From contig CAMYJA010000011.1 in assembly GCA_947258705.1 (NCBI GenBank), forward strand, positions 1 to 47,516: 47,516 bases of DNA. The letters are read 5' to 3'. The position numbers and the translations under genes were made by a program. Below are positions 4,522 to 47,516 of the stretch, one piece after another. Each line of letters begins with the position of its first letter. The stretch's first letter is position 1. This DNA comes from an uncultured Hyphomicrobiaceae bacterium (GTDB lineage Bacteria > Pseudomonadota > Alphaproteobacteria > Rhizobiales > CAMYJA01). Under the pieces are notes generated by a model that made no database searches, had not been told where the DNA came from, and saw only the letters and a list, made by a program, of their open reading frames with translations.

Positions 4522-6189
4522 CTATTCCCGAAATTTGTTTGTGATCGGATAACGACGGTCGCGGCCAAAATTCTTGAGAGAAATCTTAACCCCGGGTGCG
4601 GCCTGACGGCGCTTGTACTCGGCCAGATAGAGAAGATGCTGCACATGGTTGACCAGTTCTCGGTCATGCCCCCTCTCGACAATATCGTCAAGAGGTGTTT
4701 CATGCTCGACCAGGCATTCGAGAATGTCGTCAAGGACATCGTAAGGCGGCAAACTGTCCTGATCGCTTTGGTTTTCCCTGAGCTCCGCCGACGGCGCCTT
4801 TGTGATGATGTTCTCCGGGATGACCACCCCCTCCGGGCCGCGCGCCCCCTCCGGCCTGTTCCCGTTGCGGTACTCCGCCAGCGCATAGACCTGCGTCTTG
4901 TAAATATCCTTGATCGGATTAAAGCCGCCATTCATGTCGCCGTAAAGGGTTGCATAGCCGACCGACACTTCGGATTTGTTCCCCGTCGTCACCAGCATGT
5001 CGCCAAACTTGTTCGACACAGCCATCAATACGACCCCGCGTGTTCGCGATTGAATATTCTCTTCCGTGATATCGGCCTTCCGCCCGGCAAAGAGGTCCTT
5101 CAGCGTGTCTGCAAAACCCTCGACCGGCTGTTCGATTTCGCATATGTCATAGCGCACCCCGAGCGCCCACGCGCAGGCTGCGGCATCTTCGAGGCTTTCC
5201 TCACTTGTATAGCGGTATGGCAGCATCAGGCAGTGAACCTGCTCCGCCCCGAGCGCATCGACGGCGATGGCCGCGGTGAGCGCCGAATCGATCCCTCCCG
5301 AGAGCCCGAGCACGACGCCGGGAAAACCGTTCTTGTGCACATAATCCTTGAGGCCCAGAACCAGGGCCGCATAAATATCGGCATTTATATTGTCCTCATG
5401 CCGTGCAACGGGCCCCTCGAACCGCCAGTGATCCTGGTCCCTGATGAGGCTGCAAATCCCGATATCCTCACGAAAGCGGGGAGCTTGATAGGCAGTTGCG
5501 TGATCCCGGTTGTGTGCGAATGAACCGCCATCGAAGACGAGCTCGTCCTGCCCGCCGATCTGATTGACATAAAGAAGCGGCAGCCCGGATTCCGAAATCC
5601 GCTCCGTCACCGCGTTCATGCGCTCTTCGGCCTTTTTCCTGGTGAAAGGCGAGCCATTGGGCACGATCAGGCATTCGGCGCCGGTTTCCACCAGACATTC
5701 GATCACGTCCTCGACCCAGATGTCCTCGCAGATGGGAACGCCGATCCGGACGCCGCGAAAGCTGATCGGTCCCGGCATCGGGCCTTCGTCGAATATCCTC
5801 TGCTCGTCGAAAACACCGTAATTCGGCAGCTTGACCTTGTGGCGAAGGGCCGAAATTTCGCCCCCCTCGAGCAAGGCCGTGCTGTTGTAGAGCTTGCCCC
5901 CTTCAGCCCACAAGGTCCCCATCAATATGGCCGTGCCGCCATCGCCGGTTTTTTGCGCGAGTTCCCTGACCGCTTCCATCGTGGCTGTCTGGAAGGCCGG
6001 TTTCAGAACCAGGTCCTCGGGCGGATATCCGGTAATAAAAAGCTCCGGGAACACAAGAAGATCGGCCTTTAGCGCGCGCGCGCTTTCAAGCGCCTCTTCC
6101 GCCTTCGCCAGATTGCCCGAAAGATCGCCGACAACGGGATTGAGCTGCGCGACGGCGATCGAAAGCCTGTCTGTTTGTTTGTCATTCAT
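4522..6189 (-). CDS. nadE: Glutamine-dependent NAD+ synthase
   Basis: Last step of NAD synthesis: deamido-NAD + ATP + glutamine to NAD. About 555 aa in two domains. The N-terminal nitrilase/glutaminase domain carries the Glu-Lys-Cys triad context: [28 protein letters not shown] and VPICEDIW. The C-terminal ATP-pyrophosphatase domain has the P-loop [15 protein letters not shown]. The start is the Met of [15 protein letters not shown]; the longer open frame upstream lacks resemblance to the family. It forms a two-gene unit with gltX and is divergent from the methyltransferase at 6387. Confidence 0.95.
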
Positions 6190-6386
6190 CAGCCGATCGC
6201 ATAGACCGCAAGCGTGCGGAATGCAAGGTTGAGATGTCCCGGACGAAATGAATTCCACCCGTTTCAAGCGCACCGGGCGGCGGTAAATTCTCCCGCGTCG
6301 CATATGTCATGTATTGTTGGGCCAAATGATTTGCCCAACTTCAAGACCGGGGATATAGTCCCGCGACCTCAAATAAATGAAATTGC

Positions 6387-25525: not shown

Positions 25526-25630
25526 GTCTGGCCTGTCGTTGAAACTGAGGTGCCGTGGCACCGCGCAAAAATATTTTCACCCTCTATATAGCCCAACTCA
25601 TATCCATAATAACAGCGCTCATCAGTGAAA

Positions 25631-25755
25631 CCCGCCGGAGGCCCCGCGCCTTAGGCGCGGCTATGGCCGTGAGGCAAAAGAACCCCGCCGGAGTGCCGCC
25701 GTGAAACGGCGAGCAGCACGTGAGGCAAAACAAACACCCGCGAGGCAAAACTTGA
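25631..25755. repeat. Hairpin repeat element, two tandem copies plus a remnant
   Basis: Copy 1 (25635-25679): CCGGAG, outer GCC, stem CCGCGCC-TTA-GGCGCGG, CTAT, outer GGC, CGTGAGGCAAAA. Copy 2 (25688-25730): CCGGAG, TGC, stem CGCCGT-GAA-ACGGCG, AGCA, GCA, CGTGAGGCAAAA. A remnant CGCGAGGCAAAA follows at about 25749-25750. The flanks are the same while both stems differ with base pairing kept. It sits between divergent ubiK and lgt. Related copies lie at 43.1 and 47.5 kb. Confidence 0.85.
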
Positions 25756-25814
25756 CAAGATAACGCCAACGCCGCAATGGATGCTCATCGCGCATCCCGC
25801 AACCGGAGCATGAC

Positions 25815-43030: not shown

Positions 43031-43115
43031 GGCGCTGCCACTTAGTGGCGCTCCTCGGCCCTTAGGCCCGCCTGTCGGAGTGCCGCAGCGAGGCTGCGAA
43101 TAGCACGTGAGACAA
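43031..43115. repeat. Hairpin repeat element
   Basis: Two lead hairpins, GCCAC-TTA-GTGGC (43037-43049) and GGCC-CTTA-GGCC, then the core: TCGGAG, TGC, stem CGCAGC-GAG-GCTGCG (43084-43098), AATA, GCA, CGTGAGACAA. The core frame equals the copies at 25.7 kb but the inner stem differs, with pairing kept. Confidence 0.85.
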
Positions 43116-43123
43116 GAAAAACC

Positions 43124-46768: not shown

Positions 46769-47398
46769 ATGAACAAGTCATTGCTCATCATTGGCGCAGG
46801 CGGACACGGCCGTGTTTGCGCCGAAGCGGCGCAGGCGGCGGGCTGGACCGTTGCGGCTTTTTTCGACGAGGCCATCAAAGGTGGCCTGCCCATCAACAAC
46901 ATTCCCGTCACCACCGTCGAGCTGAAAGAACTGCACACGGAATTCCCCCCCGGGAGCCATGCTGTATTCATCGCCATCGGCAGCAATAACGACCGCCGTG
47001 GATTGTTCGAATACGCCCGCGACCTCGGTTATGAACTCCCGGTCATCATACATCCCAGCGCCCAGATTTCGCCCTCCGCGATCATCGGCGACGGCTCGGT
47101 CGCCCTTGCCAATGTCGTCGTTAACGCCAATTCCCGCATCGGCGCCTATTGCATTCTCAACACCGCCTGCACGGTCGATCATGACAATGTGCTCGACGAC
47201 GGCACGCAAATCTGTCCCGGCGCCCATCTCGCCGGCAGTGTCATTTGCGGACGGCTTGCCTTCGTCGGCACGGGCGCCAATGTCATTCCCGGCCGCAAAA
47301 TAGGCGGCGGCGCCGTCATCGGCGCGGGATCGCTCGTCGCCACCGACATCCCTCACGGTCACCGCGTCATGGGCAATCCGGCCAAACCCATCGAATAG
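46769..47398 (+). CDS. NeuD/PglD-type sugar O/N-acyltransferase
   Basis: 209 aa. The N-terminal part has the Rossmann-like NeuD opening LLIIGAGGHGRVCAEAAQAAGW (residues 5-26). The rest is a left-handed beta-helix with hexapeptide repeats (HPSAQISPSAIIGDGSVALANVVVNANSRIGAYCILNTACTVDHDNVL and VIPGRKIGGGAVIGAGSLVATDIP). Catalytic His is expected in TVDHDN. Such proteins acetylate sugars for surface glycans. No other glycan genes are next to it. Confidence 0.85.
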   Translation: MNKSLLIIGAGGHGRVCAEAAQAAGWTVAAFFDEAIKGGLPINNIPVTTVELKELHTEFPPGSHAVFIAIGSNNDRRGLFEYARDLGYELPVIIHPSAQISPSAIIGDGSVALANVVVNANSRIGAYCILNTACTVDHDNVLDDGTQICPGAHLAGSVICGRLAFVGTGANVIPGRKIGGGAVIGAGSLVATDIPHGHRVMGNPAKPIE

Positions 47399-47416
47399 CC
47401 GTGAGCGAAAACGGGA

Positions 47417-47440
47417 GCAGAAAATATAGCTGTTTTCTGC
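47417..47440 (+). terminator. Hairpin after the acyltransferase gene
   Basis: GCAGAAAA and TTTTCTGC form an 8-bp stem with an 8-base loop, 19 bases after the stop. The stem is A/T-rich and no separate T-tract follows, so it is a weak terminator call. Confidence 0.4.
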
Positions 47441-47445
47441 GACAA

Positions 47446-47516
47446 GGGACCAAGGGTCCCCGGCACATAGTGCCGCCCCCGCGGAGGCCCCGCGCCTTAG
47501 GCGCGGATATGGCCGT
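47446..47516. repeat. Hairpin repeat element, cut by the window edge
   Basis: Two lead hairpins, GGGACC-AAG-GGTCCC and CGGCAC-ATA-GTGCCG, then the core GCGGAG, GCC, CCGCGCC-TTA-GGCGCGG, ATAT, GGC, CGT. The last 34 bases differ from 25637-25670 at one position only (47507). The element continues past the edge. Confidence 0.85.

Follow-up and report, generated by a model that had tools for sequence, protein, structure and literature searches.

Among the described systems nearest to the element reported here are the GTAG REPs and BIMEs with their RAYT (TnpA-REP) enzymes. Definitions are those of PMC3733652 (GTAG and CGTC REPs) and PMC2817692 (RAYTs). Like these repeats, our element is short, intergenic and present in many copies, with a GC-rich, imperfect, bulged hairpin and a tetranucleotide at its foot; palindromy is kept while the sequence varies. 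Conversely, a GTAG REP is a single palindrome of 20-40 nt, whereas our element has four hairpins in 100-125 bp. In place of a GT[AG]G head, the foot is GGAG or GCAG in 102 of 111 matches to a model made from such copies, and GTAG in 4; a conserved GTGAG is found on the 3′ side. GTAG REPs often form alternating, inverted pairs, but in the parts of the source genome examined our element points one way along replication (48 of 49 matches), with inverted pairs in some other genomes. The source genome also gave no Y1 match. Hence, a classical RAYT-driven REP, one candidate of the original prediction, is not supported for this genome.

The CGTC REPs (Di Nocera 2013, PMC3733652) are similar in being alphaproteobacterial, in having no dedicated transposase known, and in stems and loops that vary between subsets. 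The same text defines them by CGTC, an 8-9 bp stem starting with AT and a CCA-type tail; the consensus of our element differs. CGTC-like repeats are present separately in the source genome. A further resemblance is to the ends of IS200/IS605, as described in PMC6006769, which deals with Y1 enzymes, guide sequences and the lagging strand. These ends have subterminal single-strand hairpins, pairing of guide and cleavage site through canonical and non-canonical contacts, and a lagging-strand preference. For miniature derivatives of IS200/IS605, the difference is that the source genome has no TnpA match, although some other carriers do. A fixed fork orientation, as in IS200/IS605, is found in the source genome (with the leading strand taken from skew) and not in genome G267. 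Integron attC sites were also compared, and the source genome has no integron integrase above the cut-off.

RIMEs are intergenic mosaics of ~100 bp with palindromes, found in Rhizobiales. RIMEs are named in PMC2573895; the likeness of our element to RIMEs and to the A, B and C motifs, as ~100 bp palindromic intergenic mosaics, is one of description. Queries with the element gave three weak plasmid matches, in Mesorhizobium, Phyllobacterium (Hyphomicrobiales) and Neorhizobium, and none in Sinorhizobium. Among the open-licence papers that our literature searches listed, no title or abstract opening dealt with the element or with replication-oriented hairpin repeats. Since the element is REP-like, or like a miniature IS200/IS605, but departs from both in several defining features, we class it as a repetitive extragenic palindromic element outside the named families, a placement that for RIMEs rests on descriptions. 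The element is real and present in many genomes. Its replication lock and strand-neutral covariation set it above plain GC hairpins. New here are the replication orientation, the strand-symmetric pairing exceptions and the use of hairpins as exchange modules.

Anatomy, copy number and genomic setting

The element consists of hairpins H0, H1 and H2, a compound hairpin H3 and an A-rich tail, in ~100-125 bp of intergenic DNA. In copies from many genomes the common plan is GGAG-H0-GACA-H1-H2-CCCC-H3-AAAACAAA, with CAAG for GACA in other families. Within H3 the order is P0, GGA, P1, the P2 hairpin, ~4 unpaired bases (e.g. AATA, AGCA or ATTA), P1′, GTGA and P0′, after which comes AAAACAAA. P0 occurs as GCC/GGC, CGC/GCG, CTC/GAG or GTC/GAC. 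The window analysed is 47,516 bp long and is the entire contig C11 of the source genome (2.77 Mb, 66 contigs). Two models were used for searching. R1 was made from 16 sequences. R2 was made from A4, a set of 30 gapless sequences of one core length from other genomes only, and so holds no source-genome sequence. The parts of the window copies are as follows.

25631..25682, + strand: copy 1, H3 alone, no H0-H2 seen upstream (sequence; R1 match 25630-25683)
GCC 25634-25636 / GGC 25673-25675, + strand: copy 1 P0
GGA 25637-25639 / GTGA 25669-25672, + strand: copy 1 boxes
GGCC 25640-25643 / GGCC 25665-25668, + strand: copy 1 P1
CCGCGCC 25644-25650 / GGCGCGG 25654-25660, + strand: copy 1 P2, loop TTA
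CTAT 25661-25664 and AAAA 25676-25679, + strand: copy 1 bulge and tail
25683..25734, + strand: copy 2, H3 (R2 match, E 2e-12; R1 match too)
GCC 25687-25689 / GGC 25724-25726, + strand: copy 2 P0
GTGC 25693-25696 / GCAC 25716-25719, + strand: copy 2 P1
CGCCGT 25697-25702 / ACGGCG 25706-25711, + strand: copy 2 P2, with bulge AGCA 25712-25715
25739..25750, + strand: lone tail box CGCGAGGCAAAA, P0′ and A tail without a hairpin (sequence)
43037..43049, + strand: copy 3 H1, GCCAC-TTA-GTGGC (sequence)
43057..43068, + strand: copy 3 H2, GGCC-CTTA-GGCC (sequence; comparison of source-genome H2/P2 rows)
43070..43121, + strand: copy 3, H3 (R2 match, E 3.5e-9)
GTC 43074-43076 / GAC 43111-43113, + strand: copy 3 P0, both sides different from copies 1 and 2
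GTGC 43080-43083 / GCAC 43103-43106, + strand: copy 3 P1
CGCAGC 43084-43089 / GCTGCG 43093-43098, + strand: copy 3 P2, with bulge AATA 43099-43102
47399..47411, + strand: tail box CCGTGAGCGAAAA, directly past the stop codon of ORF 46769-47398 (sequence, pattern match, ORF); probably the remnant of a decayed unit preceding copy 4
47414..47440, + strand: copy 4 GGAG box and H0, GCAGAAAATA-TAGC-TGTTTTCTGC (sequence; the module recurs elsewhere in the genome)
47446..47460, + strand: copy 4 H1, GGGAC-CAAGG-GTCCC (sequence)
47461..47475, + strand: copy 4 H2, CGGCAC-ATA-GTGCCG (sequence)
47476..47516, + strand: copy 4, H3, 3′ part missing at the contig end (R2 match cut at the 3′ side, E 0.011)
CGC 47480-47482, + strand: copy 4 P0, partner cut off
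GGCC 47486-47489 / GGCC 47511-47514, + strand: copy 4 P1
CCGCGCC 47490-47496 / GGCGCGG 47500-47506, + strand: copy 4 P2, with bulge ATAT 47507-47510

The four cores first noticed (25635, 25688, 43075 and 47481) are all in place, the last one cut by the contig end. Copy 4 runs from H0 into H3, most of which is present; H3 is all there is of copies 1 and 2. As had been claimed, 47483-47516 matches 25637-25670 with one change; a repeat search gave 93% over 40 nt. Three of the four cores are in the R2 match list and the fourth (25630-25683) is in the R1 list. R2 probably left it out through overlap removal, since it has one base in common with the next match. Elsewhere in the window, imperfect 12-bp units of the GAGGAGTGGCCG type form a short series at positions 1707-1766, in four overlapping copies.

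Among 111 distinct R1 matches the foot was GGAG in 89, GCAG in 13, GTAG in 4 and another sequence in 5; because R1 was made from GGAG and GCAG copies, these counts favour those two forms. With a copy from genus g33 as query, many matches of ~125 bp were found in G074, G191, G233 and G140, among the matches listed. All seven genomes searched matched this query somewhere, the flanking genes in the query included, and partial matches without the 3′ side exist too. Tandem units lie 95-103 bp apart at several loci (L086, L101, L102). The 5′ end consensus in g33 (58 copies) is CTANCNATAC-GAAGAAGGAG. TATCC as a fixed upstream target was unsupported, as the g33 copies have a longer 5′ consensus that we take to be the element's own. 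Some P2 stems hold GCGAAGC or tandem G.A mismatches; DNA mini-hairpins of these types are unusually stable. In the G032 copy at L100 6060-6260, the H0 loop is ~33 bases longer than in the G074 copy.

It had been proposed to search the whole genome for further copies, and many are there. Counts in the source genome are 28 for the tail box CGTGAGGCAAAA (reversed control 0), 50 for CGTRAGSSAAAA (control 4) and 19 for CCCGCCGGAGTGC. R2 gave 49 matches (E ≤ 0.05) in ~490 kb, 43 of them in a first 324 kb and the other 6 in 167 kb added to it, in regions chosen for a box or model match on either strand, apart from two C2 regions chosen for skew alone. Seven of the 50 box places, in six examined regions, have no R2 match (C1:99777, C2:89736, C2:181321, C12:50940, C32:26908, C32:42109 and C49:1528). 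Five of the seven are on the other strand, and we count all seven as lone boxes or chance.

R1 (E ≤ 0.05) matched 77 of the 297 genomes of the order, source included, and 48 of 122 genera. The listed members of g33, g12 and g15 have 7-19 R1 matches each; these and all order-wide R1 copy numbers are lower bounds, with at most 19 candidates scored per genome. Across the class, 11 of 289 genomes, again including the source, match at E ≤ 0.001. A pattern scan listed 21 stretches, several of which by eye resemble chance matches. They include a Hyphomicrobiaceae MAG (OFTM363, 6), an Alphaproteobacteria MAG (M_MaxBin.134, 4), Chelativorans, Mesorhizobium and a Desulfobacteraceae MAG (2, a shorter variant).

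The family is intergenic and dispersed, as predicted: none of 40 source-genome copies lies mostly within predicted genes. With genes called by a small codon-usage script, 17 of 42 copies in g33 are between convergent genes, against 28 of 167 in the background (p 0.0016), and 3 of 42 are between divergent genes, against 36 of 167 (p 0.044). In the source genome, 13 of 34 copies are between convergent genes, against 27 of 137 (p 0.04). A tRNA is present within 400 nt of 9 copies, always on the 3′ side, in a set of 206 that was selected by boxes alone and held chance matches. Six of the 206, in four genomes, lie on the strand opposite to the tRNA, with P0′ ending 7-10 nt away from the 3′ end of that tRNA (L077, L147, L163, L169, L239 and L250; tRNA-Val, Leu and Phe). 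Of 172 free copies, 24 have a hairpin after them, where shuffling predicts 7.9 (14 at most) and 6.5% of 2000 control windows have one. As an insertion rule, terminators or tRNA ends would thus account for a minority of copies at most.

Two neighbourhoods are recorded as side observations. In G255 (L090 3750-8644), eight R1 matches surround ORFs that by eye resemble a Ro60/TROVE-type protein and an RtcB ligase; a YrlA Y-RNA-like match (6154-6291, 69.9 bits) and an RtcR-like regulator are nearby, and the element copies form inverted pairs. At g33 loci (L100 1370-1400 and similar), a second small repeat, GGTTGC..GCAACC-TGAAGCGCC, is after or beside several copies.

Covariation and hairpin exchange

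Covariation is usually taken as a strong sign of functional RNA. The original prediction was of compensating stems between constant flanks. In A4, standard pairs make up 88.9% of cells and the covariation score is 0.415. Shuffled controls gave 0.105 ± 0.018 (0 of 500 reached 0.415) and slid partners at most 0.096. Both sides vary in 9 of 12 pairs. The pairing is thus well above chance. The first P0 pair is CG in 16 sequences, GC in 9, AU in 3, UG in 1 and other in 1; the second is GC in 12, UA in 11, CG in 6 and other in 1. In P2, columns 16/26 and 17/25 are unpaired in 12 and 16 of the 30 sequences, largely with tandem G.A types (CCGAGC..GCGAGG). As for the flanks, the boxes are kept, but the outer bases are not simply constant: they pair as P0, and both sides change. 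The two bases before CGGAG and the two after GTGAG pair and change jointly, even within the window (GCC/GGC at 25634 and 25687, GTC/GAC at 43074, CGC at 47480).

The pairing exceptions may help to tell RNA from DNA. If the displayed strand acted as RNA, G.T would be tolerated and A.C would not; for the other strand the reverse would hold. We counted exceptions at ten stem pairs, using 195 copies selected by the boxes, CC before P0 and a nearby hairpin, with P0 pairing not required. There were 1296 Watson-Crick pairs, 20 G.T, 23 A.C and 103 other mismatches. These exception counts are indicative, as 8 of the 23 A.C come from one P2 pair and the copies are related. In P0 and P1 alone there were 11 G.T and 9 A.C. 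As a yardstick, the acceptor stems of 37 distinct tRNAs from the same loci gave 19 G.T and 0 A.C among 259 pairs (Fisher 2.6e-5). Unlike in tRNA stems, G.T and A.C are thus about equal in the element, consistent with palindromes kept in a strand-neutral manner. This symmetry argues against an RNA function and for upkeep at the DNA level. Together with an orientation that is independent of neighbouring genes, it also tells against the small-RNA family that had been among the candidates. Rfam had no match on the window at the gathering threshold, nor on 25560-25800 at relaxed thresholds. At relaxed thresholds, seven array loci of other genomes gave four matches (YrlA twice, tmRNA and a Streptococcus sRNA, E 0.89), none plausible as the identity of the element.

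Hairpins recombine as modules. In the source genome, 16 H2 and 21 P2 entries ('none' being an entry) occur in 33 combinations in 41 rows, a few of which are chance matches without stems. At an orthologous site in G074 and G233 (L125 6720-6900 and L172 2440-2620), the flanks and boxes are common, but H1 (GACGCCAGGGGCGTC and GGCAACGCGAGTTGCC, respectively) and P1/P2 differ. Another site has different subtypes in G032 and G074. If whole hairpins are swapped while the boxes stay constant, both arms would change together. The earlier argument led from compensating stems to a selected structure; selection is one route to such stems. Whole-hairpin exchange or templated correction at the DNA level is a better fit to the symmetry between strands and to the shuffled modules.

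Orientation relative to replication

In the source genome, 48 of 49 R2 matches, those with E ≤ 0.011, are on the C-rich strand. The C-rich strand was defined by skew at third positions, taken as an average across genes on the two strands. All 13 contigs agree (two-sided by contig 2.4e-4), with the leading strand assigned by its excess of G instead of a mapped origin, and with copies that are not independent. Copies are on the − strand of the seven contigs with positive skew (C2, C4, C12, C15, C32, C37 and C39) and on the + strand of the six with negative skew (C11, C20, C25, C26, C34 and C44). The contrary match, outside the 48, is on C20 (L205 9585-9613, 18.5 bits, E 0.015). The sign of intergenic skew agrees on all contigs but C15 (−0.006, against +0.089 at third positions).

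Pattern counts on the C-rich strand were 37/37 for the source, 14/14 for G074, 8/10 for G032, 4/4 for G109 and 6/7 (3/3 and 3/4) for G096. Further counts were 5/5 for G059, 2/2 for G011, 2/2 for G014, 4/5 for G255, 6/10 for G267, 1/2 for G168 and 0/1 for G180, with skew too small to trust on several contigs of other genomes. Thus, the lock is not universal: G267, G168, G180 and G032 depart from it, and G255 has inverted pairs. Between tandem genes in five genomes, 16 copies run with the gene direction and 14 against (a separate count in g33 gave 13 and 9). Gene direction therefore does not explain the orientation, which in the source genome follows replication. The leading strand is normally G-rich, according to the SkewDB paper (PMC8941118). 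For copies on the C-rich strand, the lagging-strand template would then carry the complement of the displayed strand.

Other repeat families of the source genome are co-oriented: 8/9, 8/8, 7/8, 10/10, 10/12, 16/16 and 8/8, and 4/5 for the CGTC-type core. Each family was named as it reads beside the element, and some share its mosaics, so that the counts are not independent. The cause of the lock may therefore not be specific to the element. Other hairpin families are dense in the stretches read at L001, L002, L012 and L021, on other contigs, with most copies there sharing one direction relative to replication; they include CCTCATCCTGAGG...GTCTCGAAGGATG, CTCATGGTTCGAGACGG, the CGTC-REP type TTTCCCGCGAAGGCGGGAATCCA and CGGATAAGCTGATCG.

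Mobility enzymes and proposed mode of spread

PF01797 (Y1/RAYT) had 0 matches in the source genome, and the same search was positive in 5 of 14 control genomes. RVT_1 and Y2_Tnp likewise had no match there. RAYT/Y1 as a present driver in the source genome was therefore rejected. A Y2 transposase was rejected too: Y2_Tnp is absent from 7 of 8 genomes, and the single G074 match spans merely 31 of 183 positions. RVT_1 is missing from 5 of 8 carriers (G000, G032, G074, G096 and G140), with one match each in G109, G059 and G191, which speaks against a retroposon. No integron integrase scored above the cut-off in any of the 8 genomes, source included, and attC was set aside on that ground; matches below the cut-off, in all 8 genomes and all 14 controls, are presumably Xer-type recombinases. 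Comparison of loci found no empty site or target duplication, and the one promising site (G032 versus G074) holds a remnant.

In our preferred reading, the copies belong to a non-autonomous REP/MITE-like intergenic DNA element that an enzyme, of a type outside those searched or since lost, inserted in single-stranded form at replication forks. We give this a probability of about 0.47, a little under even. We infer the mode of spread as follows. A copy, folded and single-stranded, would enter a new site in the lagging-strand template, the home of the displayed strand's complement. The enzyme would recognise the conserved boxes, GGAG before H0 and CGGAG and GTGAG around H3, and P0 is perhaps equivalent to guide/cleavage-site-like pairing. 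Stems would be kept palindromic by DNA-level processes (template switching, gene conversion between copies and arm-to-arm copying) and not by RNA selection. With no match to Y1, Y2, RVT_1 or an above-cut-off integron integrase in the source genome, the enzyme would be of another type, or lost.

The strongest rival, given how PF01797 co-occurs with the element, is a lost Y1 enzyme. The element would then be a true REP family, moved in trans by a RAYT/TnpA-REP that cut at the GGAG/GTGAG boxes and has since disappeared or gone undetected. We consider this unlikely, though less so than the other rivals. PF01797 is found in 46 of 297 genomes of the order. Of the 24 genomes with 7 or more R1 matches, 9 have it, compared with 37 among the remaining 273 (p 0.005); for any R1 match, the figures are 19 of 77 with and 27 of 220 without (p 0.016). 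These p values are uncorrected for kinship and genome quality, and ordinary IS200 transposases are counted in. ORFs of RAYT-like length (224-240 aa) are present in the carriers G074, G037 and G267. The compound hairpin, with its bulge and conserved foot tetranucleotide, resembles long REPs, and GTAG is the foot in 4 of the 111 matches. Y1 enzymes use the lagging strand (PMC6006769). However, PF01797 is missing from the source genome and from the element-loaded G032, G096, G109 and G191, most feet are GGAG or GCAG, and the unit has four hairpins. A lock like that in the source genome would also arise from selection for an orientation-dependent function. The hairpins could be single-strand signals on the lagging-strand template, for priming, fork restart or segregation, with wrong-way copies lost by selection. 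The several hairpins with conserved unpaired boxes, and the GCGAAGC or tandem G.A motifs of some P2 stems, are in line with such a role. Conversely, a patchy presence (77 of 297 genomes), the unlocked copies of G267, the co-orientation of other repeat families and orthologous copies with different whole hairpins make a fork function improbable.

A structured RNA, either a small RNA or a 3′-UTR element with covariation selected in the transcript, is more improbable again. Strong covariation, an intergenic place enriched at gene 3′ ends and the six copies ending 7-10 nt from a tRNA would suit it, but the balance of 20 G.T to 23 A.C, an orientation that ignores neighbouring genes (16 with, 14 against) and the lack of any Rfam match to the element at relaxed thresholds do not. 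Least probable of all is a retroposon, in which a short RNA is reverse-transcribed into lagging-strand gaps, leaving the 3′ end A-rich and the 5′ ends truncated. Such an origin could explain the A-rich end, the strand bias and the loss of H0-H2 from some copies, such as copies 1 and 2 of the window. Against it, five carriers have no RVT_1, the wobble exceptions are symmetric and matches without the 3′ side occur too.

A bolder proposal is that a single-strand mobilisation system of unrecognised type, which dispenses with Y1, Y2, reverse-transcriptase and integron enzymes, inserts several hairpin families of unrelated sequence in alphaproteobacterial chromosomes, on the lagging-strand template. 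Whole-hairpin exchange would renew their palindromes and so produce covariation without RNA selection. This wider claim is doubtful, and well short of the single-element reading in likelihood. Comparing G.T with A.C exceptions, with tRNA stems as a yardstick, suggests a practical test for separating DNA-level palindromes from RNAs. The element itself points to replication-coupled spread of repeats, and offers many marked sites at which this can be tested.
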